Position numbers and translations under genes: made by a program. Source: Microbacterium sp. H1-D42 (GTDB taxonomy: Bacteria > Actinomycetota > Actinomycetes > Actinomycetales > Microbacteriaceae). Taken from it: a stretch of DNA of 64,000 nucleotides. Location: positions 124,001 to 188,000 of the forward strand of contig NZ_CP093342.1 of assembly GCF_022637555.1 (NCBI RefSeq), read 5' to 3'. The notes beneath the pieces were generated by a model. It was not told the DNA's origin, did no database searches, and worked only from the letters and a program-made list of their open reading frames with translations. Positions 10,810 to 57,012 of this stretch are shown one piece after another (position 1 is the first letter of the stretch; each line of letters starts with the position of its first letter).

Positions 10810-10819
10810 CGTCGACCCG

Positions 10820-10902
10820 GCCGCAACTCCGGAAAAACTGCCGAAAATCGCACAGAATGGCCGCCAGGCCCGGAATCATCGCCGAATCTCCGGAGTTGCG
10901 GC
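10820..10902. repeat. Intergenic inverted-repeat element between E1beta and E2
   Basis: Perfect 14-bp arms GCCGCAACTCCGGA (10820-10833) and TCCGGAGTTGCGGC (10889-10902) enclose 55 bases. It fills almost the whole E1beta-E2 gap and would form a hairpin in the operon mRNA. No run of T follows, so a simple terminator is unlikely. Confidence 0.75.
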
Positions 10903-10919
10903 AACCGAAAGGACTCGCC

Positions 10920-12257
10920 ATGACCACTCAGACCTTCACCCTTCCCGACGTCGGCGAGGGCCTCACTGAAGCCGAGCTCGTCGCCTGGAAGGTGGCGCCA
11001 GGCGACACCGTGGCGATCAACGACGTGATCTGCGAGATCGAGACGGCGAAATCACTCGTCGAGCTGCCATCGCCGCACGCCGGCACAGTCGGCGAGCTGC
11101 TCGTGGCCGAGGGCGTCACCGTCGAGGTCGGTGCGCCGATCATCACTTTCTTGTCGGATGCTGTCGCTGCAGCGCCCTCGGCACCCGCTGAGCCCGCTCC
11201 GGAGGAGGGCGGTGGGTCGGTGCTGGTCGGCTACGGCACCGGCGGTGGCGCCTCGTCACGCCGACGCAAGCCGGCCGAGCGACCGGTGCGCTCGTCGGTG
11301 GGAGTGATCGCGAAGCCCCCGATCCGCAAGCTCGCCCGCGACCTGAACGTCGACCTGACCGAGGTGACCGCAACTGGCGCCGACGGCGAGATCACGCGCG
11401 ACGACGTGGTGAAGCACGCTTCGCAGGCGAGTGTCTTCCGCAACATCGAGACCCCGGAGTGGGGGACAGTGCGCGAGGAGACCATTCCGGCGCCTGCGCC
11501 GGAGCCGGTGGGGCTGGCCCGTGGCATCCAGCCGTCCTCGCCGGAGGCGACCGACGGGCGCAGCGAGTCGATCCCGGTCAAAGGCGTGCGCAAGGCGACG
11601 TCATCGGCCATGGTGCGCAGCGCGTACTCGGCCCCGCACGTCACGGTCTGGAAGGAGGTCGACGCGAGCCGCACGATGGAACTCGTCGGTCGGCTGAAGG
11701 CCTCACCGGACTTCACCGACATCCGGGTGTCGCCCCTGCTGATCATGGCCCGCGCGGTCATCTGGGCAGCCCGCCGCACGCCGATGGTGAACGCGGCCTG
11801 GGTCGACACCGAGGACGGTGCCGAGATCGTCGTGCGCCACTATGTGAACCTCGGCATCGCCGCGGCCACGCCGCGCGGTCTGCTGGTGCCGAACATCAAG
11901 GACGCCCAGGATCTCAGCCTGAAGGACCTCGCTCGCGCCTTGAACCGGTTGACCCTCACAGCCCGCGAGGGCAAGACCAGCCCGGCCGACCAGCAGGGCG
12001 GCACCATCACGATCACCAACATCGGCGTGTTCGGGATGGACGCCGGCACCCCGATCATCAACCCCGGCGAGTCGGGCATCATCGCCATGGGCACGATCGC
12101 CCAGAAGCCGTGGGTCGTCGACGGCGAGGTGCGCCCCCGATGGGTGACGACTGTCGCCGGTTCGTTCGACCACCGAGTGCTCGACGGCGACGCCATGAGC
12201 CGCTTCGTCGCCGACGTGGCCGCCGTGCTGGAGGAGCCCGCGCTGCTGGTGGACTGA
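10920..12257 (+). CDS. Dihydrolipoamide acyltransferase E2 of 2-oxoacid dehydrogenase
   Basis: A 445-aa three-domain E2. The lipoyl domain spans residues 1-80 with lipoylation Lys44 ([12 protein letters not shown]). The peripheral-subunit-binding domain is at 132-165 ([17 protein letters not shown]). The catalytic domain runs from about 215 with the closing motif DHRVLDG (His418, Asp422). A single lipoyl domain and a Pro/Glu-rich linker are normal. It transfers the acyl group from E1 to CoA. The start at 10920 matches the conserved [15 protein letters not shown]; the upstream in-frame ATG at 10857 lies within the hairpin element. Confidence 0.93.
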
Positions 12258-12328: not shown

Positions 12329-15118
12329 TCAGCGGGAGCGGCCGCCGAGCGGTGCGCGGGCTGCGTAGACGCCGCCGTTCGACTCGAACGAGACGGCCAG
12401 AACCGGCGAAGCCGTCGTACCGGTCAGACTGTCCCCGGTGCCGCGAGACGAGGTGCGTGCACCGAATCGCAACTCTGTACGGCCGGATTGCACGTTCGCT
12501 TCGGCGCTGCCGATGACCTGGCTTCCGTCCCAGAGGTAGACCCGCGCCGTACCCGACCGGGGCGTTTGCAGCGAGACGCTCACGATCCCAGCGGAGATCG
12601 ACGACTTCAGCACCTTGAGCTGATGGCTCGTCGGCATGAAGCCGCCTAGGGGCACAGAATCGGCCGCTGACTGCAGAATCGACTGAGGCGACGTGACCGA
12701 GCGGGCTGCCGTGTCTGGCAGCGTCGGCGCCTTGGGTTGAGCCCCCTTGTCCTGGACGCCGTCGAGCGTGAGGATGCCCCACCGCCATGGATCGGCTCGC
12801 ATGCCGGGGAACGTCGACCAGCCGACACGGGTCTGGGCAGCCTTGTTCTGCGTGTCGGAATCGTTGATGACCACGTTGAATCCGATGTGCGACGGGTCGA
12901 CATTGTCGGGCAGGACGCCGAAGGGGATCTTGACCTCCATGTCGTACCCGGCGTACGCCTCTGCCGTGGCAGCCATCTTCACCGCGACCTGCATTCCGGG
13001 TGCGGTGATCGCAGCCTCACCCTGCCAGTTGTCACGGTCGCGGCCCACGCCGGGCGCGCCGGTCATGGAGTCCATCGATGGCATGATTCCGGCGATGAAC
13101 GTGTGGGCGGTGTTCGGGGCAGTGCCGCGCGGATCGAAATAGATCTCGACGGCGTCCGTCCGCCGCTGACGCTTGTTGTCAGATGCCGGCAGGATCGTGC
13201 CCCGCACATCGTCGACGACAGACAGGAACAGGTAGAAGTTCGCGTCGTCGTGCGTGATCCAGGTCTGCGCGCTGATCGACGGGTTCGTGCCGCCCATCGG
13301 GCTGCCGTCCCACACCGTGACCACTGGAATCGGATCGCCGGGGTACTCCCCGTCGCGGCGGATCCCGTCTATGGCGGGGGCCGTGCCTGCGCGCTGCACC
13401 GCGTATGTCGGGACGAGGTTCATCGTGACGTCGCGCTCCGCAGTGCCCGACTCGCTGGTCGCGGTGATGGTGACGGGCCAATTGCCCTTGTTCGACGCCC
13501 GGTTCGCGGTTGGGATCGATGTATCCACGTTGGTCACGTCGAACGTGAGCGTGGCGGTCTTTCCCGCGGCGAGTCCCGCGTACTGCTGGGATGCGGATGC
13601 CGAGAAACCAGCCGGCAGGGTGAGCGCGACCGATCCGGAGCGGCTCTGGGACGAGAAGTTCTCCACGACGATCTCAAGGGCCTTGGTGCGCCCCTGTCCC
13701 AGCGGGAACAGCTCGGGGACGAGCACATCGAGATGCTTCATTCCGAGGCCTGCGGTCCAGTCGCGGAACGCTTGAATCTCTTCAAGCGGACGGATCGTGG
13801 CCTCGACCGCACCTGCGACGCGAAGCTGAGCAAAGGTCGTGCCCTTCGCTGAGCCCGCTGCGAGCGTGGCCTCCACGCGGGCCTGCGTGCCGACAGCGGC
13901 GTCGCCCGCGGCGGTGACCTGAACACTCACCCGGTGCGATCGACCCTTGTTCAAGGACGGGACCGTGACGGCTCCAGTCGCGGACCAGCCCGAGGGGACC
14001 GCAAGCGTCAGCCGGCCCGCGGGCAGCTTCGCGTCCGAGGGGGCGGTGACGATGACCTCGACGGGGACGCTCTCCCCGGCGACGACTTCGAAGCGCCCTG
14101 GCCGCACATCGATCAGCGTTCCGAGCGGCAGCCCGCCCTGGATCGGCAGCGCAGCACCGCGCAGCGCCGCGTCGCCACCCGACTTCGCGTCGACGATCGG
14201 TGTGCGCGAGTGGATGACGGTGAACCACGAGTTGGAGATCTTGGCGGGATCGGTCGTGCCTGGGGCGAACTCACCCCAGCCCTGGGTGACGTAGGCCCAA
14301 CGCGCCTGGTCGAGCATCTGCGACCAGCGCTTGCCGTTGCGCACGCTCATCGTGCCGTTCCAGCATCCGAACACGACATCGGACGACACGGTCGGCGTGT
14401 AGCCCGCAGCGACGCCGCCCTCGCCGGCTGCGCCGGAGCCGTTCGCGCCCGAGCGCAGGATGCGACGCGGCTGCCATGGGCGGAAGCCTTCGGCGAAGTG
14501 CTCGGGGTAGCGGCTTTCGTCGCCGGCGGCCAGGTAGGCCTCGACCGCGAACATCGCCGCCTGCTGGTGATTGCCGTGATTGCCCTCAACGGCAGAGGGA
14601 TTCATCGTGATGATGACGTCAGGACGCGTGGCACGCACGACGCGCACGATGCGGTTGAGCACGGCATTGCCGTCCCAGACCTGGTGCGAAAGCGGTGCGC
14701 TTGCCGTGTAGTAGAAGTCGAGTCCGTCGAGATTGAACACGTTCTCGATGCCGGCGTAGCCAACAGCCTTGCGCTCTTCGGCCTCGCGCAGCATCCCCAG
14801 AGGGGGCCCCTCTTCGAGACCCACAGCGTTTCCGCCACCTTCTCCGCGGGTGACGGTGATGACGCCGGCCTTCATATCGTGGAACTCGTTCCACTGGCCC
14901 AGAACGCCGAGGTTGCCGGCCTCATCATCGGGGTGGGCGCCGATGAAGAGCACGTTCAGCTTGACGGCGCCGCCCGGTGCGGCCAGCGCCTGTTCGGCGG
15001 GAGTGAGGCCGGACACCTGCAGGCCGGCGACCGCAGCGGCGACGCCGAACGCACCGCCCGCCTTGAACAGATTTCGGCGAGTCAGCGAATATCCGGAAGG
15101 GGATTGAAGATCATCCAT
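12329..15118 (-). CDS. Tat-exported PIG-L (LmbE) deacetylase with CBM9-like domain
   Basis: A 929-aa secreted protein. Domains in order: Tat signal with TRRNLFK (13-19) and a hydrophobic stretch to about 48; PIG-L zinc deacetylase with AHPDDE (61-66) and NHGNHQ (180-185); a NEW3-like beta-sandwich at about 345-430; a second beta-sandwich at about 470-570; and a CBM9-like domain at about 575-770 (APAIDGIRRDGEYPGD ... TDAVEIYFDPRG). PIG-L enzymes remove N-acetyl groups from amino sugars, so this likely trims a carbohydrate outside the cell. It is last in the minus-strand cluster with its own perfect inverted-repeat operator. Substrate unknown. Confidence 0.85.
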   Translation of the reverse strand: MDDLQSPSGYSLTRRNLFKAGGAFGVAAAVAGLQVSGLTPAEQALAAPGGAVKLNVLFIGAHPDDEAGNLGVLGQWNEFHDMKAGVITVTRGEGGGNAVGLEEGPPLGMLREAEERKAVGYAGIENVFNLDGLDFYYTASAPLSHQVWDGNAVLNRIVRVVRATRPDVIITMNPSAVEGNHGNHQQAAMFAVEAYLAAGDESRYPEHFAEGFRPWQPRRILRSGANGSGAAGEGGVAAGYTPTVSSDVVFGCWNGTMSVRNGKRWSQMLDQARWAYVTQGWGEFAPGTTDPAKISNSWFTVIHSRTPIVDAKSGGDAALRGAALPIQGGLPLGTLIDVRPGRFEVVAGESVPVEVIVTAPSDAKLPAGRLTLAVPSGWSATGAVTVPSLNKGRSHRVSVQVTAAGDAAVGTQARVEATLAAGSAKGTTFAQLRVAGAVEATIRPLEEIQAFRDWTAGLGMKHLDVLVPELFPLGQGRTKALEIVVENFSSQSRSGSVALTLPAGFSASASQQYAGLAAGKTATLTFDVTNVDTSIPTANRASNKGNWPVTITATSESGTAERDVTMNLVPTYAVQRAGTAPAIDGIRRDGEYPGDPIPVVTVWDGSPMGGTNPSISAQTWITHDDANFYLFLSVVDDVRGTILPASDNKRQRRTDAVEIYFDPRGTAPNTAHTFIAGIMPSMDSMTGAPGVGRDRDNWQGEAAITAPGMQVAVKMAATAEAYAGYDMEVKIPFGVLPDNVDPSHIGFNVVINDSDTQNKAAQTRVGWSTFPGMRADPWRWGILTLDGVQDKGAQPKAPTLPDTAARSVTSPQSILQSAADSVPLGGFMPTSHQLKVLKSSISAGIVSVSLQTPRSGTARVYLWDGSQVIGSAEANVQSGRTELRFGARTSSRGTGDSLTGTTASPVLAVSFESNGGVYAARAPLGGRSR

Positions 15119-15183
15119 GAGGGGACCAGCCTTTCGTCCTGGCGCACAGCGATGTCGCGCCCGAACCTATGAGGAGACAGGGA

Positions 15184-15220
15184 GTCAACACTTATTTGCT
15201 AGACAGAAATAAGTGTTGAC
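15184..15220 (-). promoter_or_regulatory. Perfect 14-bp inverted-repeat operator upstream of the secreted PIG-L gene
   Basis: GTCAACACTTATTT (15184-15197), nine bases, and its exact complement (15207-15220). The core TTATTT-n9-AAATAA resembles NagC/Mlc-type ROK-repressor sites, and a ROK repressor is encoded in the same cluster. A further half-site AAATAAGT lies at 15261-15268. Confidence 0.75.
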
Positions 15221-15285
15221 CCCAATTCCATCGGTGCTTCACGGTGGCGTCAACGGCGAAAAATAAGTCCCGAACGCAGCCCGGC

Positions 15286-16146
15286 TCAGGCGGCGGGGCG
15301 TGCCAGAATCATCGCGCCCCGCAGCGAAGCGTCCGCCCCGAACGCCGAGGGCACGATCTGCGGCGGATACGGGATGGCTCCCGTCAGTCGCTCGGACAGA
15401 GGGACGAGCAGAGCGTCGCCCGCACGGGTCATTCCGCCCCCGATGACGATGCGAGAGGGGTCGATCGTGAGGACGGCGGTGATGAGGTGGCGAGCGATCT
15501 CATCCACAGCATCCGCCCACATTCGCCGCGCCGCCTCAGAATGCGGAATCGCGGCGACCAGACTCGCGACATCGGTTGCCGGGACATCTTGCGCGGCCGC
15601 CACTCGTCTGCCCAGGCCGCTGCCGCCCGCGAACTCCTCCAGCGTGACGCCGTCATGGATGTCGATCACGGCGTATCCCACCTCTCCGGCAGACCCGTGC
15701 GCGCCGCGCAGCACCTCACCTGCGATGACTGGCGAGATCGCGATCCCCGTGCCGAGGTTGACGTACAACCCGATGTCCACGCCACTGAGCGCACCCTCCC
15801 GGCACTCGGCGAGCGACGCCGCCTTCACGTCATTCTCGATTCTGAGCGACGAGACGCCGAACTCCGCCTGCATTCGGTGCCCGAGCTCGAGATCCGACCA
15901 TCCGATCACGTTGGGCGCGAGGTCGACACGGTCATCGAAGACGATGCCGGGGGTCGAGATGCCGACGGAGGCAAGTGGTCCGATCTGATCCACGAGGCGC
16001 CGCGCAGTCTCGAAGGTGCGCGAGAGAACCTCCTCGGCATTCTCGCCGTCCTCGATCTGCAGTCGTTCTTCAGCACAGTCTCCGTCGGGAGCCTCGGCCC
16101 GCAATGCGACCTTCGTGCCGCCGAAGTCGATTCCGAGCACGCTCAT
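15286..16146 (-). CDS. ROK-family sugar kinase
   Basis: A 286-aa kinase without a DNA-binding domain. The phosphate loop GIDFGGTK is at 4-11, followed by the sugar-binding segment SVGISTPGIVFDD and the ROK signature region LGTGIAISPVIAGEVLRGAHGSAGEVGY. The usual CxCGxxGC zinc cluster is not present, so it belongs to a zinc-free subgroup. Members phosphorylate glucose, N-acetylmannosamine or similar sugars. It lies between the lyase and secreted deacetylase genes, implying that an imported sugar is phosphorylated. ATG at 16146 preferred over 16158. Confidence 0.85.
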   Translation of the reverse strand: MSVLGIDFGGTKVALRAEAPDGDCAEERLQIEDGENAEEVLSRTFETARRLVDQIGPLASVGISTPGIVFDDRVDLAPNVIGWSDLELGHRMQAEFGVSSLRIENDVKAASLAECREGALSGVDIGLYVNLGTGIAISPVIAGEVLRGAHGSAGEVGYAVIDIHDGVTLEEFAGGSGLGRRVAAAQDVPATDVASLVAAIPHSEAARRMWADAVDEIARHLITAVLTIDPSRIVIGGGMTRAGDALLVPLSERLTGAIPYPPQIVPSAFGADASLRGAMILARPAA

Positions 16147-16167
16147 TGCCGCTACCACCGCCTGACC

Positions 16168-17673
16168 TCACGCGCCCAGCGTCGCCGTCGAGGCGATGAG
16201 CTGGTCGGCGACGGAGTCGAGATGAGCGCGCATTCCTTCGCGCCACAGTCGGAACTCGTCGACGGTGACCGCGCGGGCCTGCGCCATCCTGGCCACCTCC
16301 GCAGGGGCAGCCCCTCCGATGGACGTTCGCACGGCGACGAAGTTGTCGGCGTTCAGAGCGCGTGCGAAGTCCTCCGGAGTCAGCGAGACGTCACGGCCGG
16401 CGACCTCCTTGGTCACCTCGTGCACGCGAACAGGGTCGATGGTGCGCACATCGACGACACCTGCCGAGTCCGCCTCCCGCACGATCCGCGAGACCACGGC
16501 GTGCGCCTGCGTGAACGTCAGTCCGCCATCGCGGACGAGTGTGTCCGCGAGTTCGGTGGCGTTCGCGAACGATGACAGCGCACGCTCCCGCATCACATCG
16601 GTGTTCACCTGTATCGTGCCCAGAACACCCGTGAGCAGGTGCAGCACGTCCGTGAGGGTGTCCACGGCACGCCATGCGTATGGCTGCAGGTCGTCTTCAG
16701 TGTCGACGATGTCACCGAAGGGTGTGTTGTGCATCATTGTCAGCACGGTGGCGGCACTGGCGGATGCCGCCGAGAGCAGTGACCGGGAGTGCTCGATCGA
16801 GACGGGGTTCCGCTTCTGCGGCATGATCGACGAGATCTGCACATAGGGAGCCGCGACGCGGTACAAGCCGAACTCTGCCGTGCACCAGTTGAGGAAGTCC
16901 ACGCAGCTGCGCCCCGTGTCGATCGCCATGAGCTGCAAGGCGATCGCCGAATGTGCGATGTAGTCGGTGGCGGCAACGGCATCGTAGGAATTCTCCACGA
17001 CACCGCGGAACCCGAGAAGCTGCGCCATGTGCTCGCGATCGATGGCGAATCCGGTGCCGGTCAGCGCCGCGCCGCCCATCGGCGAGTAGTCCAAGCTCTC
17101 GTAAGCCTGCTGCACCCGGCGGATGTCGCGGCCGAGCACGTCGGCGATGGCGAGGAAGCGGTGTCCGAGCGTCGATGGCTGCGCCGGCTGGGTGTGCGTG
17201 TGCTCCAGCGAGAGCGTGTCGGCGTGCTCGCCACCGAGGCGCACCAGCGTCTCGTAGAGTTCGCCAGCGGCATCCAGCACGCGGATCAGCTGCCGACGCA
17301 TGACCATGCGGTAGAGCGTCATGCCCATGTCATTGCGGCTGCGCGCCGTGTGGAGGCTGCCGGTGACATCGCCGCCGATGCGCATCATCTCGTTCTCCAC
17401 AGTGAAGAACAGGTCCTCGAACTGGCCCGTGTACTCACTGGCGGCAAGAGCGTCGAGATCCAGCCCGTCGATCGCCCTTGCAATCGTGGCGGCGTCGGCG
17501 TCGTTCAAGATGCCGGCCCCGTGCAGCATGATCAGATGCGCGCGGTGGATCTGGATCATCGAGGGCAGCAGCATCCGCTTCGCCTCGTCATACGCAGGAC
17601 GCAGGACAGCGGTCGTGTAGCTTTCGCCCGGGAAGGTGGCGCCGTCGCGCTGGACGATCTCGTCGCGGTTCAT
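16168..17673 (-). CDS. Argininosuccinate lyase-superfamily enzyme, not canonical ArgH
   Basis: A 501-aa fumarase/aspartase-superfamily lyase. All three conserved regions are visible: LHTARSRNDM (107-116), HTHTQPAQP (158-166) and the catalytic loop SSIMPQKRNPV (281-291) with the base serine at 281/282. Against true ArgH, it lacks the N-terminal LWGGRF, has NPV where NPD is expected, and is about 30 residues longer. No arginine genes are near; it sits behind an FbpABC-type importer. EDDS lyase (about 502 aa, same subfamily, cleaving N-succinyl amines) is one model for the reaction, from memory. Expected chemistry: C-N elimination releasing fumarate. Confidence 0.75.
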   Translation of the reverse strand: MNRDEIVQRDGATFPGESYTTAVLRPAYDEAKRMLLPSMIQIHRAHLIMLHGAGILNDADAATIARAIDGLDLDALAASEYTGQFEDLFFTVENEMMRIGGDVTGSLHTARSRNDMGMTLYRMVMRRQLIRVLDAAGELYETLVRLGGEHADTLSLEHTHTQPAQPSTLGHRFLAIADVLGRDIRRVQQAYESLDYSPMGGAALTGTGFAIDREHMAQLLGFRGVVENSYDAVAATDYIAHSAIALQLMAIDTGRSCVDFLNWCTAEFGLYRVAAPYVQISSIMPQKRNPVSIEHSRSLLSAASASAATVLTMMHNTPFGDIVDTEDDLQPYAWRAVDTLTDVLHLLTGVLGTIQVNTDVMRERALSSFANATELADTLVRDGGLTFTQAHAVVSRIVREADSAGVVDVRTIDPVRVHEVTKEVAGRDVSLTPEDFARALNADNFVAVRTSIGGAAPAEVARMAQARAVTVDEFRLWREGMRAHLDSVADQLIASTATLGA

Positions 17674-17725
17674 ACTTCTTCTCTTTCAGGGGTCGTTCGG
17701 GAGTTGCAAAATGGAGCACGGGGCG

Positions 17726-19468
17726 TCAGAGCGTGGTGGCTGTGCCTTCTTTCGCCTCCATCCGGCGCGTGATGATCAGGACGCCGAGCACGAGGAACAC
17801 CTGGATCATGCCGTACACCGAGCCGGTGCCGATGTTGCCCTGATAGTTCTCGTTGTTGATCGCGATCGACAACGGCACCCAAGCCGGCGTGTAGATGAGC
17901 ACGCTCGCGACGAATTCGCCGACACCGTCGACGAAGGCGAGCAGTGCGCCGGCCATGATCCCCCGTGAGATCAGCGGCAGCACGACTTTTCGGAATGCGT
18001 GCCACCATGTGGCACCGAGGCTGCGCGCGGCATCTTCGAGATTCGGATCGAGTTGTGAGAAGGACGCGAAGGTCGAGCGGAAGATCAGAGGGTTGAATCG
18101 CACGAAGTAGGCCAGCGGGAGAATCGCGAAGGTGCCGACGAGGACCTGCCCGAATGCGAAGGGTGAGGGGCTCGAGAACGCCGTGATGAGGTTGATCGCG
18201 ACGACCGTGCCAGGAAGTGCCCACGGCAGCATGATCGCGATGTCGAGGGCGAGCTTTCCGCGGAAATGCATCCGGCTCATGACATACGCAGCTCCGGCGC
18301 CGAGGATGACCGCGCCGCCGACGGCGATCACGCTCATCAGCAGAGAGTTCGTGACGGGACGCCAGAAGTCCACACCGCTGAACATCTGCGCCCACCACTC
18401 CAGCGTGTAGTCGCTGGGCAGCACGCTCGACAGCCAGCCGCCCTTCGCGGTGACCGACAGCACCGCGATCATCACGATCGGCAGCACGAGAAACAGCGTC
18501 GTGGGGACGGCGATCACGAACAGCAGCACCTTCAGTGGCGTCGAGGTGACTGTGGAGCGCTTTCGTCCGCCGCCCTTCGACTGGGTGCGGTAGACCTTGC
18601 GCTGCTCATAGGAGCGGATGATGGCGAGGAAGGCGATCGAGATGACGGCCAAGGTCGTCGAGATGATGGACGCCAGGCGCATGTCGCCGTTCGTCTTCGC
18701 GATCACGATCTGCTGGGTCATCACATCGGTGTATTGGAACAGCAATGGTGCCGTATACGACGACATCGCGGACATGAACGTGATCAATGCGCCGGCGACG
18801 AGCGCCGGGGTGAGCATCGGCAGGACGACCTTCATCCAGATGCGCGCCTTGCCGGCGCCCATCGACGCTGCTGCTTCTTCGAGTGAGGCGTCGGCGTTGG
18901 ACAGCGCGGCGGAGACCGTCAGGAAGAAGTAGGGGTACATCGTCATCGCATGCACTATGAGGACCCCGGCGAGGCCCTGGAGCCAGAACATCTTCTGGTC
19001 GACGCCGAACCACTCCTGCATGGCGAAGGGGATGCGCCCGCCGACGCCGAAGAGCAGTTTGAACGACCACACGCCCATCAGGGGCGGCAGGGCGATCGGC
19101 AGCAGTGCGAGCACCTGACAGATGCGTCGGCCGGGGAAGTCCCAGCGGGTGAGCAGGATCGCCACGGCGGTGCCGAGCACGCCGGCGACCACCACCGAGA
19201 GCAGCGACAGCACGATCGATCCGCCGATGGCGGACGTCTGGGTGGGGTTGGCGAAGAAGTCGGCCCAGGCCTTGAACGAGAATCCGAGTACCGCGGCCTT
19301 GTCCTGAGAGACGCTGCGGCGGGCGGTGGCGATCATCGGGCCGATCACGTATCCGAGCAGCACCACGCCGAGCAGGGTGAGAGTCAGCACTGTCGACCAG
19401 CGGCGCTTGATCCACGGCGGACGCTTCGACGGGCCGGTGACCCGCTGCGCTGTTGTCAGCGAGCTCAT
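17726..19468 (-). CDS. ABC transporter permease, two fused permease domains (FbpB type)
   Basis: A 580-aa inner-membrane protein with about twelve membrane segments in two homologous halves. Each has an EAA loop contacting the ATPase: LEEAAASMGAGKARIWMKV (about 195-215) and LEDAARSLGATWWHAFRKV (about 475-495). Fused permeases of this length are typical of the iron, 2-aminoethylphosphonate and phosphoglycerate importer branch. It overlaps the ATPase gene by four bases and is followed by the lyase gene. Cargo is unknown, but the context suggests an organic amine, metal chelate or sugar derivative. Confidence 0.88.
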   Translation of the reverse strand: MSSLTTAQRVTGPSKRPPWIKRRWSTVLTLTLLGVVLLGYVIGPMIATARRSVSQDKAAVLGFSFKAWADFFANPTQTSAIGGSIVLSLLSVVVAGVLGTAVAILLTRWDFPGRRICQVLALLPIALPPLMGVWSFKLLFGVGGRIPFAMQEWFGVDQKMFWLQGLAGVLIVHAMTMYPYFFLTVSAALSNADASLEEAAASMGAGKARIWMKVVLPMLTPALVAGALITFMSAMSSYTAPLLFQYTDVMTQQIVIAKTNGDMRLASIISTTLAVISIAFLAIIRSYEQRKVYRTQSKGGGRKRSTVTSTPLKVLLFVIAVPTTLFLVLPIVMIAVLSVTAKGGWLSSVLPSDYTLEWWAQMFSGVDFWRPVTNSLLMSVIAVGGAVILGAGAAYVMSRMHFRGKLALDIAIMLPWALPGTVVAINLITAFSSPSPFAFGQVLVGTFAILPLAYFVRFNPLIFRSTFASFSQLDPNLEDAARSLGATWWHAFRKVVLPLISRGIMAGALLAFVDGVGEFVASVLIYTPAWVPLSIAINNENYQGNIGTGSVYGMIQVFLVLGVLIITRRMEAKEGTATTL

Positions 19469-20553
19469 CGCGCCTCCGCCGGGACGCAGTAGGCGGCTTC
19501 CTCGGGCAGCACGACGCGCATCATGTCGCCACGCTCGGGCCGTGCGTGCACTCCGGTCAGGTCGACCTTGATGCGTCCAAGCGACGAGTCGATCTCACAC
19601 GACAGCGAATACCCGACGAAGTCGACGTCGGCGACCGTCCCCGAGATCACGTTGGTGTGCTCGTCGGATGCTGCTGGTCGGACCGTCTCGGCCCGCACCG
19701 TGGCGATGATCGGTGTTCCCGCCGCGAAGGTGACTCCGGGGGCGGCGTTCTCGGTGCGCACCTCCAGAGTGCTGCCGTCGGCAAGCGTGAGGGTCGCACG
19801 CCCCCCGTCAACGCGCTGGACGGTGGCATCGAGCAGGTTGTTGCGCCCGAGGAACCCCGCCACGAACGCAGTGTGCGGTCGGCTGTAGACCTCATCGGGG
19901 GTTCCGACCTGGTGCACGACCGCCGTGTTCATGACGGCGATGCGCGTCGACATCGCGAGCGCCTCGGCCTGATCATGCGTGACGTACACCGATGTGATGC
20001 CTGTCTCGGCGTGGAGGTCGCGAAGCGCTCCGCGCATCTCGAGGCGCAGCTTCGCGTCGAGGTTCGACATCGGCTCATCCAGCAGAAGCAGCTGGGGGCG
20101 GAAGACCAGCGCCCGGGCGAGCGCAACGCGCTGCTGCTGCCCGCCCGAGAGCTCGTCCACCCTGGCACCCGCCTGCGCGGCGAGCCCCACTTGATTCAGC
20201 ACATCGCTGATGCGCTGCTCGGCCTCGGCTTTCTGCACCTTGCGCACGTCGAGTCCGAAGCCGACGTTGCGCGTGACGGACATGTGCGGGAACAACGCGT
20301 AGTTCTGGAACACCAGACCCACATCGCGCTTGTTCGCCGGCGCATACGTCACGTTGCGATCATCGAAATGGATCGTTCCGCTGTCGGGTTCCTCGAACCC
20401 GGCGATCATTCGCAGCGTCGTCGACTTGCCGCATCCCGACGGTCCGAGCAGGGTGAAGAACTCCCCGTCCGCGATCGTCAGATCGATGCCGTCCACGACG
20501 GTGCCGGATCGCGCGAATGACTTTCGCAGGTGGTGCAGTGTGACCGAGACCAT
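19465..20553 (-). CDS. ABC transporter ATPase (FbpC/PotA type)
   Basis: A 362-aa ATPase. Walker A is GPSGCGKST (37-45), the signature LSGGQQQR, Walker B LLLLDEPMSNLD, and the switch His in YVTHDQ. The C-terminal 120 residues form a TOBE/OB regulatory domain, as in importers of the spermidine/iron group. It sits between binding-protein and permease genes, eight bases after the former and overlapping the latter. It powers uptake at the cytoplasmic face of the membrane. Confidence 0.92.
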   Translation of the reverse strand: MVSVTLHHLRKSFARSGTVVDGIDLTIADGEFFTLLGPSGCGKSTTLRMIAGFEEPDSGTIHFDDRNVTYAPANKRDVGLVFQNYALFPHMSVTRNVGFGLDVRKVQKAEAEQRISDVLNQVGLAAQAGARVDELSGGQQQRVALARALVFRPQLLLLDEPMSNLDAKLRLEMRGALRDLHAETGITSVYVTHDQAEALAMSTRIAVMNTAVVHQVGTPDEVYSRPHTAFVAGFLGRNNLLDATVQRVDGGRATLTLADGSTLEVRTENAAPGVTFAAGTPIIATVRAETVRPAASDEHTNVISGTVADVDFVGYSLSCEIDSSLGRIKVDLTGVHARPERGDMMRVVLPEEAAYCVPAEAR

Positions 20554-20561
20554 CGTTCAGA

Positions 20562-21662
20562 TCAGCCCTTGTCCTTGATGTTGTCGGCCCAGTAGGTCAT
20601 CCACTCGTCCTGGTGGTCGGCGAACACGGCCCAGTCGATCTTCTGCTCGTTGATCTTGAAGTCCTTCATCCACTCGGGCTGGTCGGCCTCGGGGATGTCC
20701 ATCGCTGAGATCTGGTAGTAATCGGCGGCGAGCTTCGCCTGCATCTTGGGCTCCATCAGGAAGTCCATGAACGACTGCGCAGCGGCCTGCTGCTTGTCGT
20801 TCTTGATGATTCCGACCCCGTCGACGAGCACCGGAGCACCCGACTTCGGCATGATGTAGCCCCACGGACGGTTGTTCTTGAGCGGCTGGATCAGCGCATC
20901 CTGCATGTTCCACACGGTGACCTGACCGGTGCCCTGGTCGAGTTGCGTGTACATGTCGTCGGGGGTGGCGGCATAGGAGACGGTGTTCGCGTCGATCTTC
21001 TTCAGCAGGTCGTAACCGGCGTCAGGGCTGCCGTCTTCTGCAAAGGCCGAGTAGACGATCGCTGCGTAGATCGTGCGCATCGTGCCGGAGGGCATGACGT
21101 CGCGAATGACGATCTTGTCCTTCCACTCGGGGTCGCCGAGGTCGCTCCAGTCCTGCGGGGCGGTTTCGGCGGTGAGGAGGTCGGAGTTGTAGATGATCAC
21201 CTCGGGCAGCAGCATCTCTGCGATCCACTGACCATTGGGATCCTTGTACTTGTCGGCGACAGCGTCGCCGTTCTTGGGTGTGTAGGCAGCGAGCAGACCC
21301 TCGTCGGCTGCCTGCTCGAACTGCTGCTGTGTTCCGCCCCAGAGGAACCCGGCCTGCGGGTTGCCTGATTCGGCGCGCATGCGGTCGAGGTTGTCCTGGG
21401 CGCCGGCGATGACGGTGGTCACCTTGCCCGCATACTCGGGGAACTCCTTCTCGAACTCCGAGACGACCCAGGCGACCTCGTCCTTGTCGCGACCGGTGTA
21501 GATGGTCAGGCTCTCGCTGGGCTGCAGGGTCTCTGTGCCTGCTTCGGGCGTCTTGGACTTCTCGGGGGCGACATCGCCCGCGCAGCCCGACAACATCAGG
21601 GCGCCCGCCGCAGCGAACGTGGTGAGGGTGAGCAGTCGGCGCTTGGTGGTGTTGGTCTTCAT
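20562..21662 (-). CDS. ABC transporter substrate-binding lipoprotein (FbpA-like)
   Basis: A 366-aa extracytoplasmic binding protein. The signal peptide MKTNTTKRRLLTL... ends in lipobox LSGC (Cys27). The mature part starts with SLTIYTGRDKDEVAWVVSEFE, the family pattern of Fe3+/2-aminoethylphosphonate/phosphoglycerate receptors. The paired tyrosines of ferric-binding FbpA are not obvious, so the cargo need not be free iron. The start at 21662 follows AGAGGAAG. It is first gene of the importer, about 100 bases downstream of the ROK repressor gene. Confidence 0.88.
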   Translation of the reverse strand: MKTNTTKRRLLTLTTFAAAGALMLSGCAGDVAPEKSKTPEAGTETLQPSESLTIYTGRDKDEVAWVVSEFEKEFPEYAGKVTTVIAGAQDNLDRMRAESGNPQAGFLWGGTQQQFEQAADEGLLAAYTPKNGDAVADKYKDPNGQWIAEMLLPEVIIYNSDLLTAETAPQDWSDLGDPEWKDKIVIRDVMPSGTMRTIYAAIVYSAFAEDGSPDAGYDLLKKIDANTVSYAATPDDMYTQLDQGTGQVTVWNMQDALIQPLKNNRPWGYIMPKSGAPVLVDGVGIIKNDKQQAAAQSFMDFLMEPKMQAKLAADYYQISAMDIPEADQPEWMKDFKINEQKIDWAVFADHQDEWMTYWADNIKDKG

Positions 21663-21670
21663 ATTCTTCC

Positions 21671-21712
21671 TCTTTGAAGGGAGTGGCGGGGTCTTTGAAG
21701 GGAGTGGCGGGG
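21671..21712. repeat. Perfect 21-bp tandem duplication in the binding-protein leader
   Basis: Two identical head-to-tail 21-base units (21671-21691 and 21692-21712) lie immediately upstream of the Shine-Dalgarno of the binding-protein gene. They look like a recent slippage duplication. On the mRNA each unit carries a CU-rich stretch. Confidence 0.85.
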
Positions 21713-21762
21713 TTGCCACGGTCTGGGTCGGGCGGGGTGATGAGACTCCGAATGGATGCTGT

Positions 21763-22881
21763 TCATAGACCTCCCGTGAGCAGCTGCTGCCAGCAGCGGT
21801 TTAGAGCGGAGTCGAGTACGGCGTCCGGCTTCGGGCTTGCTGGGCGCACGGTGGGGAGGAACGGCAGATCTCCGCGCAGCGGCTGCAGCATCTCGTCGTG
21901 GTCCCTCTCGCGGAAGGCCCGTGCATGTCCGCCGAGCAGGATGACATGCGGGTCGAGCAGCGCCGTGATCACCGCGATGGCATGGGAGAACGCCGTGATC
22001 ACGTCGGTGCGAATATGCAGCGCCGCCTGATCTCCGCTGTCGGCGAGAGCGAGCAGACGGTCGACCACCTGGCCGTTGACGGTGTGTCCGGCAGCCTCCA
22101 AGCGGGCGGCGATCGCCCGCGTCGAGGTGGTGTCCTCGAAGTCGGTGCGGTCGTTCGCGTTCAGCGGCGAGAGTCCGATCTCGCCAGCCGCGCCGTGGTC
22201 GCCCTCGATCAGTCGACCTGAAGCGATGATGCCCGCTCCGATACCGCGGGTCCCCAGATACAGGTACACGGCATTGTTGCTGGCGCGGACGTCGAGGACG
22301 CGACGCTCCGCCGCCATCATCAGATTCACATCGTTGTCGATCGTCACCACCGTGCCGAAACGCTCCTGCAGGAGTGCGCGCAACGGGACCACGTCGGTCC
22401 AGCCGAGGTCGGGTGCGGCGCTCACGTCACCGGTTGCAGCGTCGACCACGCCGGGAACCGCCACGCCCACGGCGAGTACGCGTGGCGTTCGAGCGATGAG
22501 CGCGGCAATGACCGCGGCGATCGACTCTGGAGTCACTTCGCCGTCAGTCGATGCGGAGCTGGTCTCGGCGATGATTCCGCCATGCAGGTTGACCATGCGC
22601 GCGCGCAGTCCGTCGGCGGTGCACGAGACCGCCAGCAGCGCCCCATGGTCACGCACGACCTCGAGCCGCACCGGGGGACGGCCGATGCTCTGCGCCTGCA
22701 CGCCGAGTTCCCGCAGGATGCCGTCGTCGATGAGGCCACGCACGAGTCGGGTGATCAGCGACGAACTCACGCCGAACTGCTCGACGAGATCGGTGCGACT
22801 CTTGCGCTGCTCGTGCAGCGCCCCGACGAGGCGTGCGCGCTGCGTGCGGCGGTCCGCCAACGCGAGGGACGGCCGAGACAT
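21763..22881 (-). CDS. ROK-family transcriptional repressor
   Basis: A 372-aa NagC/XylR-type regulator. The N-terminal winged helix at about 15-70 (RKSRTDLVEQFGVSSSLITRLVRGLIDDG) is followed by a ROK sugar-binding domain with VGVAVPGVVDAATG, IDNDVNLMM and GTRGIGAGIIASG. The CxCGxxGC zinc motif is replaced (GDHGAAGEIGL). Effectors of the family are sugars or sugar phosphates. Its ATG overlaps the stop of the MshB-like gene by one base. It is the natural candidate to bind the inverted repeats at 15184 and 23809. Confidence 0.9.
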   Translation of the reverse strand: MSRPSLALADRRTQRARLVGALHEQRKSRTDLVEQFGVSSSLITRLVRGLIDDGILRELGVQAQSIGRPPVRLEVVRDHGALLAVSCTADGLRARMVNLHGGIIAETSSASTDGEVTPESIAAVIAALIARTPRVLAVGVAVPGVVDAATGDVSAAPDLGWTDVVPLRALLQERFGTVVTIDNDVNLMMAAERRVLDVRASNNAVYLYLGTRGIGAGIIASGRLIEGDHGAAGEIGLSPLNANDRTDFEDTTSTRAIAARLEAAGHTVNGQVVDRLLALADSGDQAALHIRTDVITAFSHAIAVITALLDPHVILLGGHARAFRERDHDEMLQPLRGDLPFLPTVRPASPKPDAVLDSALNRCWQQLLTGGL

Positions 22882-23768
22882 CAGTGGATCTCCGCCGCAG
22901 ACAGCAGGTCGGTCTCATAGCGTTCGCCGACGCGGTGGCCGCCCTTGACGCGGATGAACCATTCGCGGTCTTGAATCCGCATGCCGCGACCAGAAGCGAG
23001 TACCCAGTACGGCCCGTTCACCGTCAGCTGTGTGTGATGGCATCCGAGCGCCGCTGACTTTGCAGACAGGTAGTCAGACACATCGAACTCGACGTCGATC
23101 ACCGCATCGTCATGGACGCCGTCCGGATACTCTGACAGATCGGTGTCGACCCAGAGTCCCAGCTCTGCCGCATGCGTAGCCAGTTCCCTGAGATCGGCTG
23201 TGATCACATCGCGCGGGACGGCCGTCCAGTACACCAAAGGGACGTCCCAGACGGGGGCATCGCTGTCGGCGGTCGGATCGGCAGCGAGCTCGATGCCGCG
23301 CATCGTCACCCGATGCGTCTGGATGTGATCAGGATGCCCGTAGCCGCCGTTCGGGTCGTAGGTGACCACGACCTTCGGTCGCGTCTCGCGGATGATCTCG
23401 GCCATCAGCAGCCCGGCCTGGTCGAGATCGGCCTGCCAGAAGGCATCGGCTCGGTCGTTCGCCGGAATACCCATCCGGCCGGAGTCACGAAAGTGACCAC
23501 GGCCGCCGAGATAACGATGGTCCGCCACCTGGAGCGCGTCGATCGCACAGGCGAGTTCACGGGCGCGCTCGGGTCCGAGCGCGTCATCTTCGTCGGCATG
23601 CAGGTGTTGGAGGTCGAGGACGGCGATGCGTCCCTGCTCGCCCATCGTCGACGTGACGACGGTGACCTGGTGCCCTTCTGCCACGAGGCGAGCGATCGTC
23701 CCGCCTGTCGCGCAGCTCTCGTCGTCCGGGTGGGCATGTGCGAAGAGAACGTTCACGGCGTTCGTCAC
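22881..23768 (-). CDS. MshB-like PIG-L deacetylase (cytoplasmic)
   Basis: A 295-aa zinc deacetylase. AHPDDE is at 12-17, followed by GTIARLVAEGHQVTVVT, the segment YLGGRGHFRDSGRMG, and VVTYDPNGGYGHPDHIQTH carrying the third zinc ligand. These blocks match mycothiol-pathway MshB (GlcNAc-inositol deacetylase) and Mca closely. Its operon with a ROK repressor and sugar importer suggests either mshB itself under sugar control or a paralogue acting on an imported amino-sugar conjugate. The GTG at 23768 is chosen because GGGAG lies six bases upstream; earlier starts fall in the operator region. Confidence 0.82.
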   Translation of the reverse strand: MTNAVNVLFAHAHPDDESCATGGTIARLVAEGHQVTVVTSTMGEQGRIAVLDLQHLHADEDDALGPERARELACAIDALQVADHRYLGGRGHFRDSGRMGIPANDRADAFWQADLDQAGLLMAEIIRETRPKVVVTYDPNGGYGHPDHIQTHRVTMRGIELAADPTADSDAPVWDVPLVYWTAVPRDVITADLRELATHAAELGLWVDTDLSEYPDGVHDDAVIDVEFDVSDYLSAKSAALGCHHTQLTVNGPYWVLASGRGMRIQDREWFIRVKGGHRVGERYETDLLSAAEIH

Positions 23769-23808
23769 GTCTATCTCCCTTGATCGGCGCATCAGCAGAC
23801 TGCTTGAG

Positions 23809-23843
23809 TCGAGTTTGATTCTGACAGCAAGAATCAAACTCGA
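23809..23843 (-). promoter_or_regulatory. Perfect 14-bp inverted-repeat operator upstream of the MshB-like/ROK operon
   Basis: TCGAGTTTGATTCT (23809-23822), spacer GACAGCA, and its exact complement (23830-23843). An AAATAAGT half-site like those at the other operator follows at 23854-23861. Arm length equals that of the 15184 site; the spacer also contains GACAG. Confidence 0.7.
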
Positions 23844-23925
23844 GAAGATCGGAAAATAAGTCGAGCTGATGCCCGGGTTCCGGTGAGATGGATATGAAAC
23901 CCGAATCGATCACAGCCGCCGAGTT

Positions 23926-23959
23926 GATAATGGTTCTCATTAGCATTTAGCATGGGAGC
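23926..23959 (+). promoter_or_regulatory. Zur-like box and leaderless -10 of znuA
   Basis: Dyad TAATG-gttct-CATTA (23928-23942) inside TGATAATGgttctCATTAGCA matches the actinobacterial Zur pattern with one mismatch. TAGCAT (23948-23953) follows, six bases before the ATG at 23960. Zinc-loaded Zur bound here would block initiation. Confidence 0.75.
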
Positions 23960-24925
23960 ATGCAGAAGCCTCTCGCCGCCCTCGCGCTCGCCGCAGCATC
24001 CGTCATCGTGCTCACCGGGTGCGCAACGACCGCGACCCCGGGCGGCGATGGCAGGGTTCAGGTCGTCGCCTCGACGAACGTGTACGGCTCGCTGGCCGCC
24101 GAGATCGGCGGTGACCGAGTCGAGGTGACCAGCCTGATCGACTCCGCAGCGAAGGATCCGCACTCCTACGAAGCCACCGCGCGCGACCGACTTGCCGTCC
24201 AGAAGGCCGATCTCGTGATCGAGAACGGCGGCGGCTACGACTCGTTCATGGAAGAGCTGCGCGACGGCTCGGATGCCACTGTCATCACCGCCGCGGAGTT
24301 CTCGCACGACTACCCGGATGCGATCGTCGACGACCACCACGGCGACGAGCACGCTGACGACGAGCACAGTGAAGACGCTCACGCGGGCCACGACCACATC
24401 GAGGGGTTCAACGAGCACGTCTGGTTCGATACGCACACGATCTCCCACGTCGTGGAGCAGATCGCCGACGATCTGACCGTGCTCGATCCCTCCGGAGCGT
24501 CCGCGTACGAGTCGGCTGCCAAGACGCTGACCGGCGAGCTCGCCGACATCGAGACCGAACTGGCCACACTGCACGAGAAGCTCGAGGGCACCCCGGTCTT
24601 CATCACCGAGCCGCTGCCCGGCCTGCTGGCCGCGGCCGCAGGTCTCGACGATGTCACCCCGGACGGATTCGCCTCGGCGGTCGAGGAGGGCAACGACGTG
24701 GCCCCGGCCACCCTGCTCGAGGGCCTTTCGCTCGTGGACAGCGGCGAGGTGCGGGCGGTGCTCACCAACGCGCAGACCGGCGGAGGCGAGACGGCGCGCA
24801 TCGAGGATGCTGCGGAGCAGGCGGGCATCCCCGTGCTCGCCTTCTCAGAGCTGCTGCAGCCCGATCAGTCGTACGCTGAGTGGATGCACTCCGCGCTCTC
24901 CGACCTCGGCTCGCTCGCCGAATGA
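23960..24925 (+). CDS. znuA: Zinc ABC transporter substrate-binding lipoprotein
   Basis: A 321-aa cluster A-I metal receptor. Signal peptide with lipobox LTGC (Cys21); metal-ligand region DPHSYE; a His/Asp-rich loop at about 115-145 (DDHHGDEHADDEHSEDAHAG) typical of zinc-specific ZnuA; then HVWFDTHTISHV. It captures Zn2+ outside the membrane for the ZnuB channel. First gene of znuA-znuC-znuB, with the start fixed by the -10 at 23948 and overlapped downstream by ATGA. The Zur-like box predicts expression under zinc limitation. Confidence 0.93.
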   Translation: MQKPLAALALAAASVIVLTGCATTATPGGDGRVQVVASTNVYGSLAAEIGGDRVEVTSLIDSAAKDPHSYEATARDRLAVQKADLVIENGGGYDSFMEELRDGSDATVITAAEFSHDYPDAIVDDHHGDEHADDEHSEDAHAGHDHIEGFNEHVWFDTHTISHVVEQIADDLTVLDPSGASAYESAAKTLTGELADIETELATLHEKLEGTPVFITEPLPGLLAAAAGLDDVTPDGFASAVEEGNDVAPATLLEGLSLVDSGEVRAVLTNAQTGGGETARIEDAAEQAGIPVLAFSELLQPDQSYAEWMHSALSDLGSLAE

Positions 24926-25767
24926 CCGACGAGGTCCCTGCCGCGCCTGCTCCGGTGCTCAGCATCACCGGCGCGGCCCTGCACCGCGGCAGTCGAGAAC
25001 TGTGGGCAGGACTCGACCTGGACGTCGCACCTGGCGAGTTCATCGCGGTGCTCGGGCCGTCTGGCTCTGGAAAGACCACGTTGCTGCGCAGCATCCTCGG
25101 CCTGCAGTCCCTGTCGGCCGGCAGCATTCGCGTCGCGGGTGAGCCGACCCGGCGGGGCAACCCGCGCATCGGCTACGTGCCCCAGCAGCGCCCACTGCCG
25201 CCGGACACCAGCATGCGCGCCCGCGACCTCGTCGCACTCGGCGTGCGCGGCACCCGCTTCGGACTGCCCATCCCCCGCAAGGGCGACCGAGAGCGCGTGG
25301 ACGCCCTGCTCGAGGGCGTCGGTGCAGCGCACTACTCGGAACGTCCCGTAGGACTGCTCTCCGGTGGAGAGCAGCAGCGACTGCGGGTCGGTCAGGCCCT
25401 CGCCGATCAGCCCGCGCTGCTGCTGTGCGACGAGCCGCTGTCGAACCTCGACCTGGCCAACCAGCGCGGCGTGACCGACATCATCGACCGGCAGCGCCGA
25501 GAGCACGGCACCGCCGTGCTGTTCGTCACGCACGATATCAACCCGATCCTCGGCCGCGTCGATCGCATCCTCTACATCGCCGGCGGACGCTTCGTGCTCG
25601 GTACGCCGGATGAGGTACTGCAGAGCCGGGTGCTCACCGAGCTGTACGGCACACCCGTGTTCGTGCTGCGCGCCGGCGACCGGCTCGTCGTGGTCGGCGT
25701 GCCCGACGCAGAACCGCACCACGAGCACGGCGACGATGAGCCGACCAGTGCGGGAGCACACGCATGA
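24922..25767 (+). CDS. znuC: Zinc ABC transporter ATPase
   Basis: A 281-aa ATPase. Walker A GPSGSGKTT near residue 45, signature LLSGGEQQRLRVGQ, Walker B LLLCDEPLSNLD and switch His in VTHDINP. The C-terminus is rich in His and Glu (EPHHEHGDDE), which may bind zinc. It overlaps znuA by four bases, fixing the start at 24922 rather than 24880, and overlaps znuB by four bases. Confidence 0.92.
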   Translation: MTDEVPAAPAPVLSITGAALHRGSRELWAGLDLDVAPGEFIAVLGPSGSGKTTLLRSILGLQSLSAGSIRVAGEPTRRGNPRIGYVPQQRPLPPDTSMRARDLVALGVRGTRFGLPIPRKGDRERVDALLEGVGAAHYSERPVGLLSGGEQQRLRVGQALADQPALLLCDEPLSNLDLANQRGVTDIIDRQRREHGTAVLFVTHDINPILGRVDRILYIAGGRFVLGTPDEVLQSRVLTELYGTPVFVLRAGDRLVVVGVPDAEPHHEHGDDEPTSAGAHA

Positions 25768-56912: not shown

Positions 56913-56941
56913 GTGATTGAGCCTATTCGCCTACGGTGTGG

Positions 56942-57012
56942 AGGGACTGACGGGAATCGAACCCGCGCTATCTGCTTGGGAAGCAGAAGTTCTGCCATTG
57001 AACTACAGTCCC
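56942..57012 (-). tRNA. tRNA-Gly (anticodon CCC)
   Basis: On the minus strand the acceptor arms GGGACTG and CAGTCCC pair perfectly. D arm GTTC-aatggca-GAAC, anticodon stem TCTGC/GCAGA with loop TTCCCAA (anticodon CCC), T arm with GGTTCGATTCC. Discriminator T; CCA is not encoded. It reads GGG glycine codons. Confidence 0.96.

Follow-up and report, generated by a model that had tools for sequence, protein, structure and literature searches.

A conserved gene set around an argininosuccinate-lyase-superfamily enzyme of Microbacterium suggests a catabolic pathway for acidic glucosamine conjugates

Bacillithiol, a conjugate of cysteine, glucosamine and malate (Cys-GlcN-malate), is made by the BshA, BshB and BshC enzymes of many Firmicutes and of Deinococcus radiodurans (PMC4360819). 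According to a review of the LmbE family, the substrates of the PIG-L enzymes known up to 2014 have an N-acylglucosamine core in common, and BshB binds its substrate through Arg109 (PMC4101496). Here, we describe a run of eight genes from Microbacterium sp. H1-D42 in which two PIG-L enzymes stand beside an ATP-binding cassette (ABC) importer, a lyase of the argininosuccinate-lyase superfamily, a sugar kinase and a ROK-family repressor. The run occupies positions 12329-23838, on the minus strand, of the stretch that we analysed (hereafter the window: 64,000 nucleotides, positions 124,001 to 188,000 of contig NZ_CP093342.1, assembly GCF_022637555.1), in a genome made of a single contig of 3.66 Mb. 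The best explanation for the whole would be the catabolism of an acylated glucosamine conjugate bearing a malyl or succinyl group, which we consider somewhat probable from the gene content; that the products of the pathway are an aminosugar and fumarate is likely.

The genes, called mechanically as open reading frames and assigned to families with Pfam and NCBIfam, all lie on one strand and belong to the families named in an earlier reading of the same DNA (hereafter the sequence-only reading). They are transcribed in the following order: a short, MshB-like PIG-L deacetylase (22881-23768), the ROK regulator (21763-22881), a solute-binding protein (20562-21719), an ATPase (19465-20553), a fused double permease (17726-19468), the lyase (16168-17673), a ROK-family kinase (15286-16158) and, after 167 bases, a long and exported PIG-L enzyme (12329-15118). 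Up to this last interval the spacing is operon-like, with overlaps of 1 and 4 bases and gaps of 8, 9, 43 and 52 bases.

The conserved, catabolic gene set is in itself a real finding. The genes are not routinely separated in other genomes: the set recurs together in Actinomycetota, Bacillota, Deinococcota and Pseudomonadota, and this recurrence supports the proposal of the sequence-only reading that they form one pathway importing an N-acylated amino-sugar conjugate. A scan of named genomes gave 48 loci, from Microbacterium (6), Glaciihabitans (1), Bacillota (40) and Cohaesibacter (1). The six further Microbacterium loci keep the short PIG-L, ROK regulator, importer, lyase and ROK kinase in unchanged order, three of them together with the long PIG-L, and a Glaciihabitans contig of 6 kb holds the importer and the lyase; the window lyase is 92% identical to a protein of Microbacterium esteraromaticum. 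Among the 40 Bacillota loci, the importer and the long PIG-L are found in 36, a BadF kinase nearest to NagK in 35, a ROK regulator in 31, a short PIG-L in 24 and a creatininase-family gene in 8; the lyase occurs without importer and partners in four (L034, L048, L050, L052). The alphaproteobacterial Cohaesibacter locus differs in make-up. Annotated plasmids (33 and 48 records for two queries) added Deinococcus and Alphaproteobacteria: plasmid pDrdI of Deinococcus wulumuqiensis encodes in a row a ROK protein, the lyase, a long PIG-L, a binding protein, two permeases, a short PIG-L and a carbohydrate kinase, and in Qingshengfaniella and Aminobacter the set consists of PIG-L, ROK, importer, lyase and a PfkB kinase. 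In ten chosen plasmid regions, a ROK regulator was found in five and a sugar kinase in five; two had a CUT1 importer only and three (haloarchaea, Cupriavidus) none of the set.

To quantify these associations we counted, within at most 7 kb and on the strand of the lyase, the partners of 102 lyase loci, keeping partnerless loci and cut contigs as misses; the loci represent 100 distinct places (L057/L156 and L048/L162 coincide), and the window and L090 (identical to L016) are not counted. An FbpABC-type importer is present in 55 loci and a CUT1 importer in 40 (both types in 5), a long PIG-L in 59, a short PIG-L in 45, a BadF or ROK kinase in 60, a PfkB kinase in 7 and a ROK regulator, which is often farther off than 7 kb, in 29. 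When the importer is of the FbpABC type, the long PIG-L accompanies it in 48 of the 55 loci, a BadF or ROK kinase in 49 and the short PIG-L in 35. The kinase varies over three families and the importer over two, the lyase and PIG-L being constant, so that the steps persist while the proteins that carry them out differ, and this is the strongest sign that the eight genes would act in one pathway, a reading that is well supported by the gene neighbourhoods. At the level of genomes, the lyase was detected in 15 of 398 from the phylum Bacillota (sample centre included), in 53 of 104 from the one family sampled around Paenibacillus tyrfis (seven of them matched twice), in 6 of 388 Pseudomonadota (searched with a distant query, whose own genome is counted) and in 2 of 398 sampled Microbacteriaceae (window genome included; the sample held eight other Microbacterium genomes). 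Even with the six further Microbacterium loci from the scan of named genomes, the system looks rare in this family, and it reaches far beyond it.

The lyase (PF00206 (Lyase_1) and PF14698 (ASL_C2)) keeps the catalytic residues of its superfamily. We aligned the first 63 loci, in which S112-R113-N114-D115, T159-H160, S281-S282, K287, N289 and E294 are invariant, in 53 of 53 near rows (which hold one place twice, L016/L090, and the identical pair L014/L015) and 10 of 10 distant ones. The S281-S282-I-M-P loop and the succinate-side K287 and N289 are kept as in EDDS lyase, which is the closest solved relative by sequence (217 bits) and the nearest fold (TM score 0.85) to the predicted structure (mean predicted local distance difference test score 92.7). 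These retained catalytic and succinate-side residues support the earlier proposal that the enzyme releases fumarate, which is well supported by analogy with the chemistry of the family. The Asp (of KKNPD), Tyr and Gln of ArgH, which we take to face arginine, are replaced by V291, D321 and E326 in all 53 near rows; the distant rows have V291 in 8, D321 in 9 and E326 in 4 of 10. Since the arginine-side residues are uniformly changed, fumarate would be released from something other than argininosuccinate: the leaving group appears to be new, and the conserved acidic residues would suit an aminosugar.

We considered whether the window lyase is a second ArgH. Despite a score above the cut-off of the argH model (TIGR00838, 309.2 versus 279.5), this was ruled out by the changed residues and by the other ArgH-like gene of the genome, its closest paralogue (C1:1294186-1295517, 33% identity), whose frame keeps D, Y and Q; one TGA lies within the match and was interpreted as the end of the gene. 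The window lyase is accordingly not the only ArgH of the organism, so that the refutation named in the sequence-only reading does not apply on this point. Residues V291, H295, N316 and D321 are common to seven plasmid lyases of Alphaproteobacteria and Deinococcus and are missing from three of haloarchaea and Cupriavidus, which we left out of the family as they have neither signature nor gene context. Two haloarchaeal plasmid lyases annotated argH lack the signature (L202, L204), one near fumarate-reductase-type and gamma-glutamyltransferase genes and the other adjoining a rhodanese; they probably act on another substrate. The Terrarubrum and Bosea lyases keep the signature and adjoin a CUT1 importer, and no PIG-L, ROK or kinase gene was found within 8 kb of them. 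In databases, these lyases could be told apart from ArgH simply by the signature Q279, V291, H295, N316, D321. A more distant gene of the superfamily, 29% identical to the window lyase, lies across the window start (1-498, minus strand).

The sugar kinase (PF00480, 110 bits) is a proposed glucosamine kinase. Its position is filled elsewhere by BadF/NagK-like or PfkB families instead of ROK, and NagK is the sole NCBIfam match of the BadF kinases, below cut-off. NagB above cut-off is encoded in the gene run of the lyase in 2 of the 102 loci, one gene (L076) and two genes (L082) away from it, and the sugar product is therefore probably glucosamine. Together with the ROK kinase and SIS protein of a Roseomonas locus, the NagK-like kinases and NagB point to glucosamine-6-phosphate as the likely product, in support of the sugar phosphorylation step of the sequence-only reading.

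The exported PIG-L enzyme, a deacetylase or amidase of 929 aa (PF02585, 70 bits), carries two stretches of PF10633 (NPCBM_assoc/NEW3), one of PF06452 (CBM9_1), the metal motifs AHPDDE and HGNH and, as read in the sequence, the twin-arginine motif TRRNLFK. The earlier idea that deacetylation takes place outside the cell, before import, does not hold in general: the two alphaproteobacterial long PIG-L proteins inspected, as annotated, have starts without obvious signal peptide. The short, cytoplasmic PIG-L scores above the NCBIfam cut-off for MshB (TIGR03445, 288.9 versus 224.35 bits) and matches the solved MshB 4ewl with 169.3 bits; a GTG at 23768, preceded by a GGGAG ribosome site, is a likelier start than the mechanically called TTG (23837), which is probably mistaken. 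These are the only two PIG-L genes (PF02585) in the 3.66 Mb of the genome. Neither MshC (best score 267.6 versus 485.1) nor MshA (130.8 versus 462.5) was found above cut-off in the genome. A role of the MshB-like gene in making mycothiol is therefore improbable; mycothiol biosynthesis was rejected as an explanation, and this refutation named in the sequence-only reading also fails. A mycothiol-derived substrate, which that reading had also entertained, is unlikely because no inositol-catabolic family is among the eight genes.

The importer comprises the AfuA/PhnS-like binding protein (PF13343 (SBP_bac_6), with a lipobox LSGC read in the sequence), the ATPase (PF00005 and PF08402 (TOBE_2)) and the fused permease (two stretches of PF00528), for which the nearest NCBIfam models are 2-aminoethylphosphonate and sulfate permeases, among the matches listed all below cut-off. 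The three best solved relatives of the binding protein in phmmer are AfuA, which is the nearest, P5PA and 8x1a, named as binders of sugar-phosphate, pyridoxal-phosphate and glucose-6-phosphate (G6P), respectively. All three are within the first four Foldseek rows, and iron proteins are level with AfuA by VIA-align. Residues R206, S211-G212-T213, R215 and Q273-D274 are invariant in 18 aligned homologues, and R206 and R215, beside the SGT motif, could bind two carboxylates. Gln273-Asp274 align with His205-Asp206 of AfuA, presumably the site of the iron-binding Tyr pair of FbpA. Iron import of the FbpABC type was judged unlikely from the residues and from the nearness in sequence to the non-iron AfuA; the fold leaves iron proteins equally close.

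The ROK repressor (372 aa; PF00480, 112 bits, from residue 94 onward) matches the NagC and Mlc models below cut-off from residue 28 onward. Two perfect palindromes are its candidate operators. The first, TTATTT-N9-AAATAA (15192-15212), precedes the exported PIG-L gene and resembles, we presume, NagC/Mlc-type ROK operators. It is the sole match in the window at up to 1 mismatch, with 0 in 100 shuffles, and recurs in 3 of 7 Actinomycetota loci, exactly upstream of the long PIG-L in L011 and with 2 mismatches near the start of this gene in L012 and L017; it was not found in L013-L016, loci showing no long PIG-L. The second, TTTGATTCT-N7-AGAATCAAA (23814-23838), lies upstream of the operon, is the sole window match at up to 3 mismatches (0 in 100 shuffles) and recurs in 4 of the 7 loci, exactly in L011 and L012, with 1 mismatch in L017 and with 4 in L013; it was not found in L014-L016. 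As both palindromes are unique and recurring, they suggest one regulon.

On the plus strand, three genes that read as a 2-oxoacid dehydrogenase complex (8702-12257; E1 alpha and E1 beta identified by eye, E2 by Pfam) converge on the exported PIG-L gene. On the other side, divergent genes (23960-26624, plus strand) encode, by eye, a ZnuABC-type metal importer; in front of them, in the intergenic region common with the operon promoter, is TAATGAGAACCATTATCA (23925-23942), which we take to be a Fur/Zur-type box. A tRNA-Gly (ccc) at 56939-57012 (minus strand) is the sole Rfam and ARAGORN match in the window.

For the substrate, the bond cleaved, the order of the steps and their regulation, we infer the following scheme. 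The exported PIG-L would strip the N-acyl group of the malyl- (or succinyl-) bearing acylated glucosamine, or cut an amide, outside the cell. The AfuA-like importer would take up the acidic aminosugar, and the cytoplasmic PIG-L would finish its de-N-acylation. The dedicated lyase would then eliminate fumarate from the malyl O-glycoside and free glucosamine, which the kinase would convert to glucosamine-6-phosphate, with fumarate entering the tricarboxylic acid cycle. The ROK repressor would respond to the sugar. The likeliest natural substrate would be bacillithiol, its disulfide or conjugates, or N-acetylglucosamine-malate (GlcNAc-malate).

The conjugate could be a different one. The lyase might free fumarate or a relative from another acidic group of a glucosamine conjugate or of a short polymer-derived glycoside, which we find possible, if rather doubtful. 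The NEW3 and CBM9 domains of the exported enzyme, which could point to a polymeric substrate and to that extent weigh against a malyl conjugate, would be explained in this way, as would the carbohydrate-type CUT1 importers of 40 loci. However, no glycosidase family is found among the eight genes (Pfam) or their recognised recurrent neighbours, and PIG-L enzymes act, in the account of the LmbE review, on N-acylglucosamine cores (PMC4101496), though this does not decide between conjugates.

The bond could also be a different one. The sequence-only reading had the lyase cleave a C-N bond, as EDDS lyase and argininosuccinate lyase do, and the substrate would then be an N-succinylated or aspartyl-linked amino sugar, the other steps being unchanged. 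We hold this to be unlikely. C-N cleavage is indeed what EDDS lyase and ArgH, the nearest solved relatives of the enzyme, carry out, and the remaining partner genes fit equally; but where EDDS lyase has the Asp that the D290M entries replace, Val stands in 53 of 53 near rows, and we know of no abundant natural N-succinyl hexosamine, a point that we counted against this alternative. C-N cleavage is not established, and the partner genes agree better with a malyl C-O bond.

A third alternative is that the enzyme is an S-(2-succino) lyase (2SL), which would remove fumarate from succinated thiols such as cysteine or bacillithiol, with the PIG-L enzymes processing the thiol. A 2SL of the lyase class I family (cd01334) is described as freeing fumarate from N-acetyl-succinocysteine (PMC9706529), and cysteine synthase, D-cysteine-desulfhydrase-family, rhodanese, thioredoxin-like and FMN-monooxygenase genes adjoin paralogous lyases. 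Yet no acetyltransferase or M20 deacetylase family is found among the eight genes (Pfam), and sugar kinases, NagB, ROK control and the twin PIG-L enzymes would be left unexplained; we regard this alternative as quite improbable and kept the succinocysteine pathway as a weak rival only. Finally, a chance neighbourhood of a second ArgH, mycothiol genes and an iron importer would agree with the argH and MshB scores above NCBIfam cut-offs and with the nearness in fold of iron-binding proteins, but is hardly credible given that loci from four phyla conserve the gene set, that the genome has another ArgH, that MshA and MshC were not found above cut-off and that the binding protein is nearest by sequence to a non-iron protein.

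Under the preferred reading, a malyl conjugate of acylated glucosamine, the choice of bacillithiol-type substrates is tentative, and we put it a little short of probable. Glucosaminyl-malate, around which bacillithiol is built, is, to our knowledge, the sole metabolite that unites a glucosamine processed by PIG-L enzymes with a fumarate-yielding group. All 39 Bacillota hosts searched encode BshC, against 0 of 8 others (L055 not included). In the Bacillota sample, with kinship ignored, the share of genomes with BshC is 5 of 6 where the lyase reaches 45% identity and 72 of 392 for the others (p = 0.0012), and it is 4 of 5 when the genome at the centre of the sample is removed (p = 0.005). Sulfur genes adjoin lyases in 6 of the 102 loci. 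Locus L179 has a cysteine synthase above cut-off and a D-cysteine-desulfhydrase-family protein beside a paralogous lyase, and such lyases stand beside rhodanese (5 loci), thioredoxin-like (6) and FMN-monooxygenase (9) genes; these cysteine and sulfur genes fit bacillithiol indirectly. A serine-dehydratase-alpha-family gene, presumably of the cysteine-desulfidase type, lies near the lyase in L081, and a search of the order around the genome with this neighbour returned that genome alone (1 of 10). In the Paenibacillus runs L173 and L176-L180, an FMN monooxygenase, a rhodanese (not in L180) and a thioredoxin-like gene precede a paralogous lyase accompanied by Amidohydro_2 and a CUT1 importer; these runs are maybe a separate pathway. 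Creatininase-family and Amidohydro_2 genes occur in 22 loci each and never together, and our guess is that their role might be to open the ring of a lactam or lactone arising from glucosaminyl-malate.

Several observations weigh against this proposal. The line at 45% identity was set after the data had been seen; with all lyase hits BshC occurs in 5 of 15 genomes (p = 0.18), or 4 of 14 without the centre (p = 0.32), and none of the 9 lyases below 45% identity is in a BshC genome. The sulfur-linked loci have the paralogous lyase type, a CUT1 importer and mostly Amidohydro_2, and PIG-L, sugar kinase, NagB and ROK genes were all absent from 19 of the 22 Amidohydro_2 loci, the exceptions being L082, L084 and L166. 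PIG-L is found in only 4 of the 10 chosen plasmid regions (two in Alphaproteobacteria, two in Deinococcus), and there is no second PIG-L in the two alphaproteobacterial PIG-L loci read. By motif comparison, the short PIG-L lacks the substrate-binding Arg109 of BshB: its motif is GHPDH, as in MshB, and other PIG-L proteins in the genomes of eight relatives, classed by motif reading only, have RHPDH or VHPDH. This last test is not decisive, because the VHPDH proteins of the same genomes also lack Arg109. The link to bacillithiol makers is, overall, mixed.

In the open-access literature searched, no description of such a route was found, nor a described step removing the malate of bacillithiol, nor, in the titles and abstract openings seen, a breakdown route for this thiol beyond the conjugate amidase. 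Genes annotated as argH, mshB and an iron importer would move to one catabolic pathway in four phyla. It is conceivable, although we would not yet call it probable, that bacillithiol-type thiols are put to a widespread, undescribed use, in which a C-O lyase splits glucosaminyl-malate into fumarate and glucosamine and non-producers such as Microbacterium scavenge from neighbouring Bacillota. If the substrate is bacillithiol, this would be the first malate-removal step known to us, thiol turnover and scavenging in soil would become testable, and a malyl-glycoside C-O lyase would join a well-studied superfamily.

Several known systems come close. EDDS lyase (PDB 6g3d, 6rx8) shares with the window lyase the superfamily, the fumarate product and the catalytic serine loop; the two are 28-30% identical, and Asp290 of EDDS lyase (numbering from the D290M variant), to which we ascribe a role on the amine side, aligns with V291. 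EDDS is a metal chelator without sugar, and we know of no PIG-L, ROK or kinase partners of its lyase. The mycothiol enzymes MshB and Mca resemble the short PIG-L, which scores as MshB, whereas this genome has two PIG-L genes only and no MshA or MshC above cut-off. The importer resembles AfuABC in that the Thr of the SGT motif and an Asp align with the phosphate-site Thr150 and sugar-site Asp206 of AfuA (PMC4546632), and differs in having Ala, Gln and Leu where AfuA has Ser37, His205 and Glu229, in two additional invariant Arg and in a permease that is one fused protein. The 2SL clusters of the yxe/scm type, as described, share the lyase class, the freed fumarate, an ABC importer, a deacetylation step and a catabolic role (PMC9706529). 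They are set apart, by that description, by a thioether substrate, an acetyltransferase and an N-acetylcysteine deacetylase, and by having no sugar kinase, ROK or PIG-L protein in the account given (PMC9706529). A further parallel is the bacillithiol system with its amidase Bca, whose PIG-L enzymes are described as acting on GlcNAc-malate and on bacillithiol conjugates, with glucosamine, malate and cysteine as the parts (PMC4360819). There, Arg109-His110 of BshB form the RHPDH motif, in place of the GHPDH found here, and the PIG-L enzymes serve biosynthesis or conjugate cleavage only, whereas the pathway that we propose would be catabolic.

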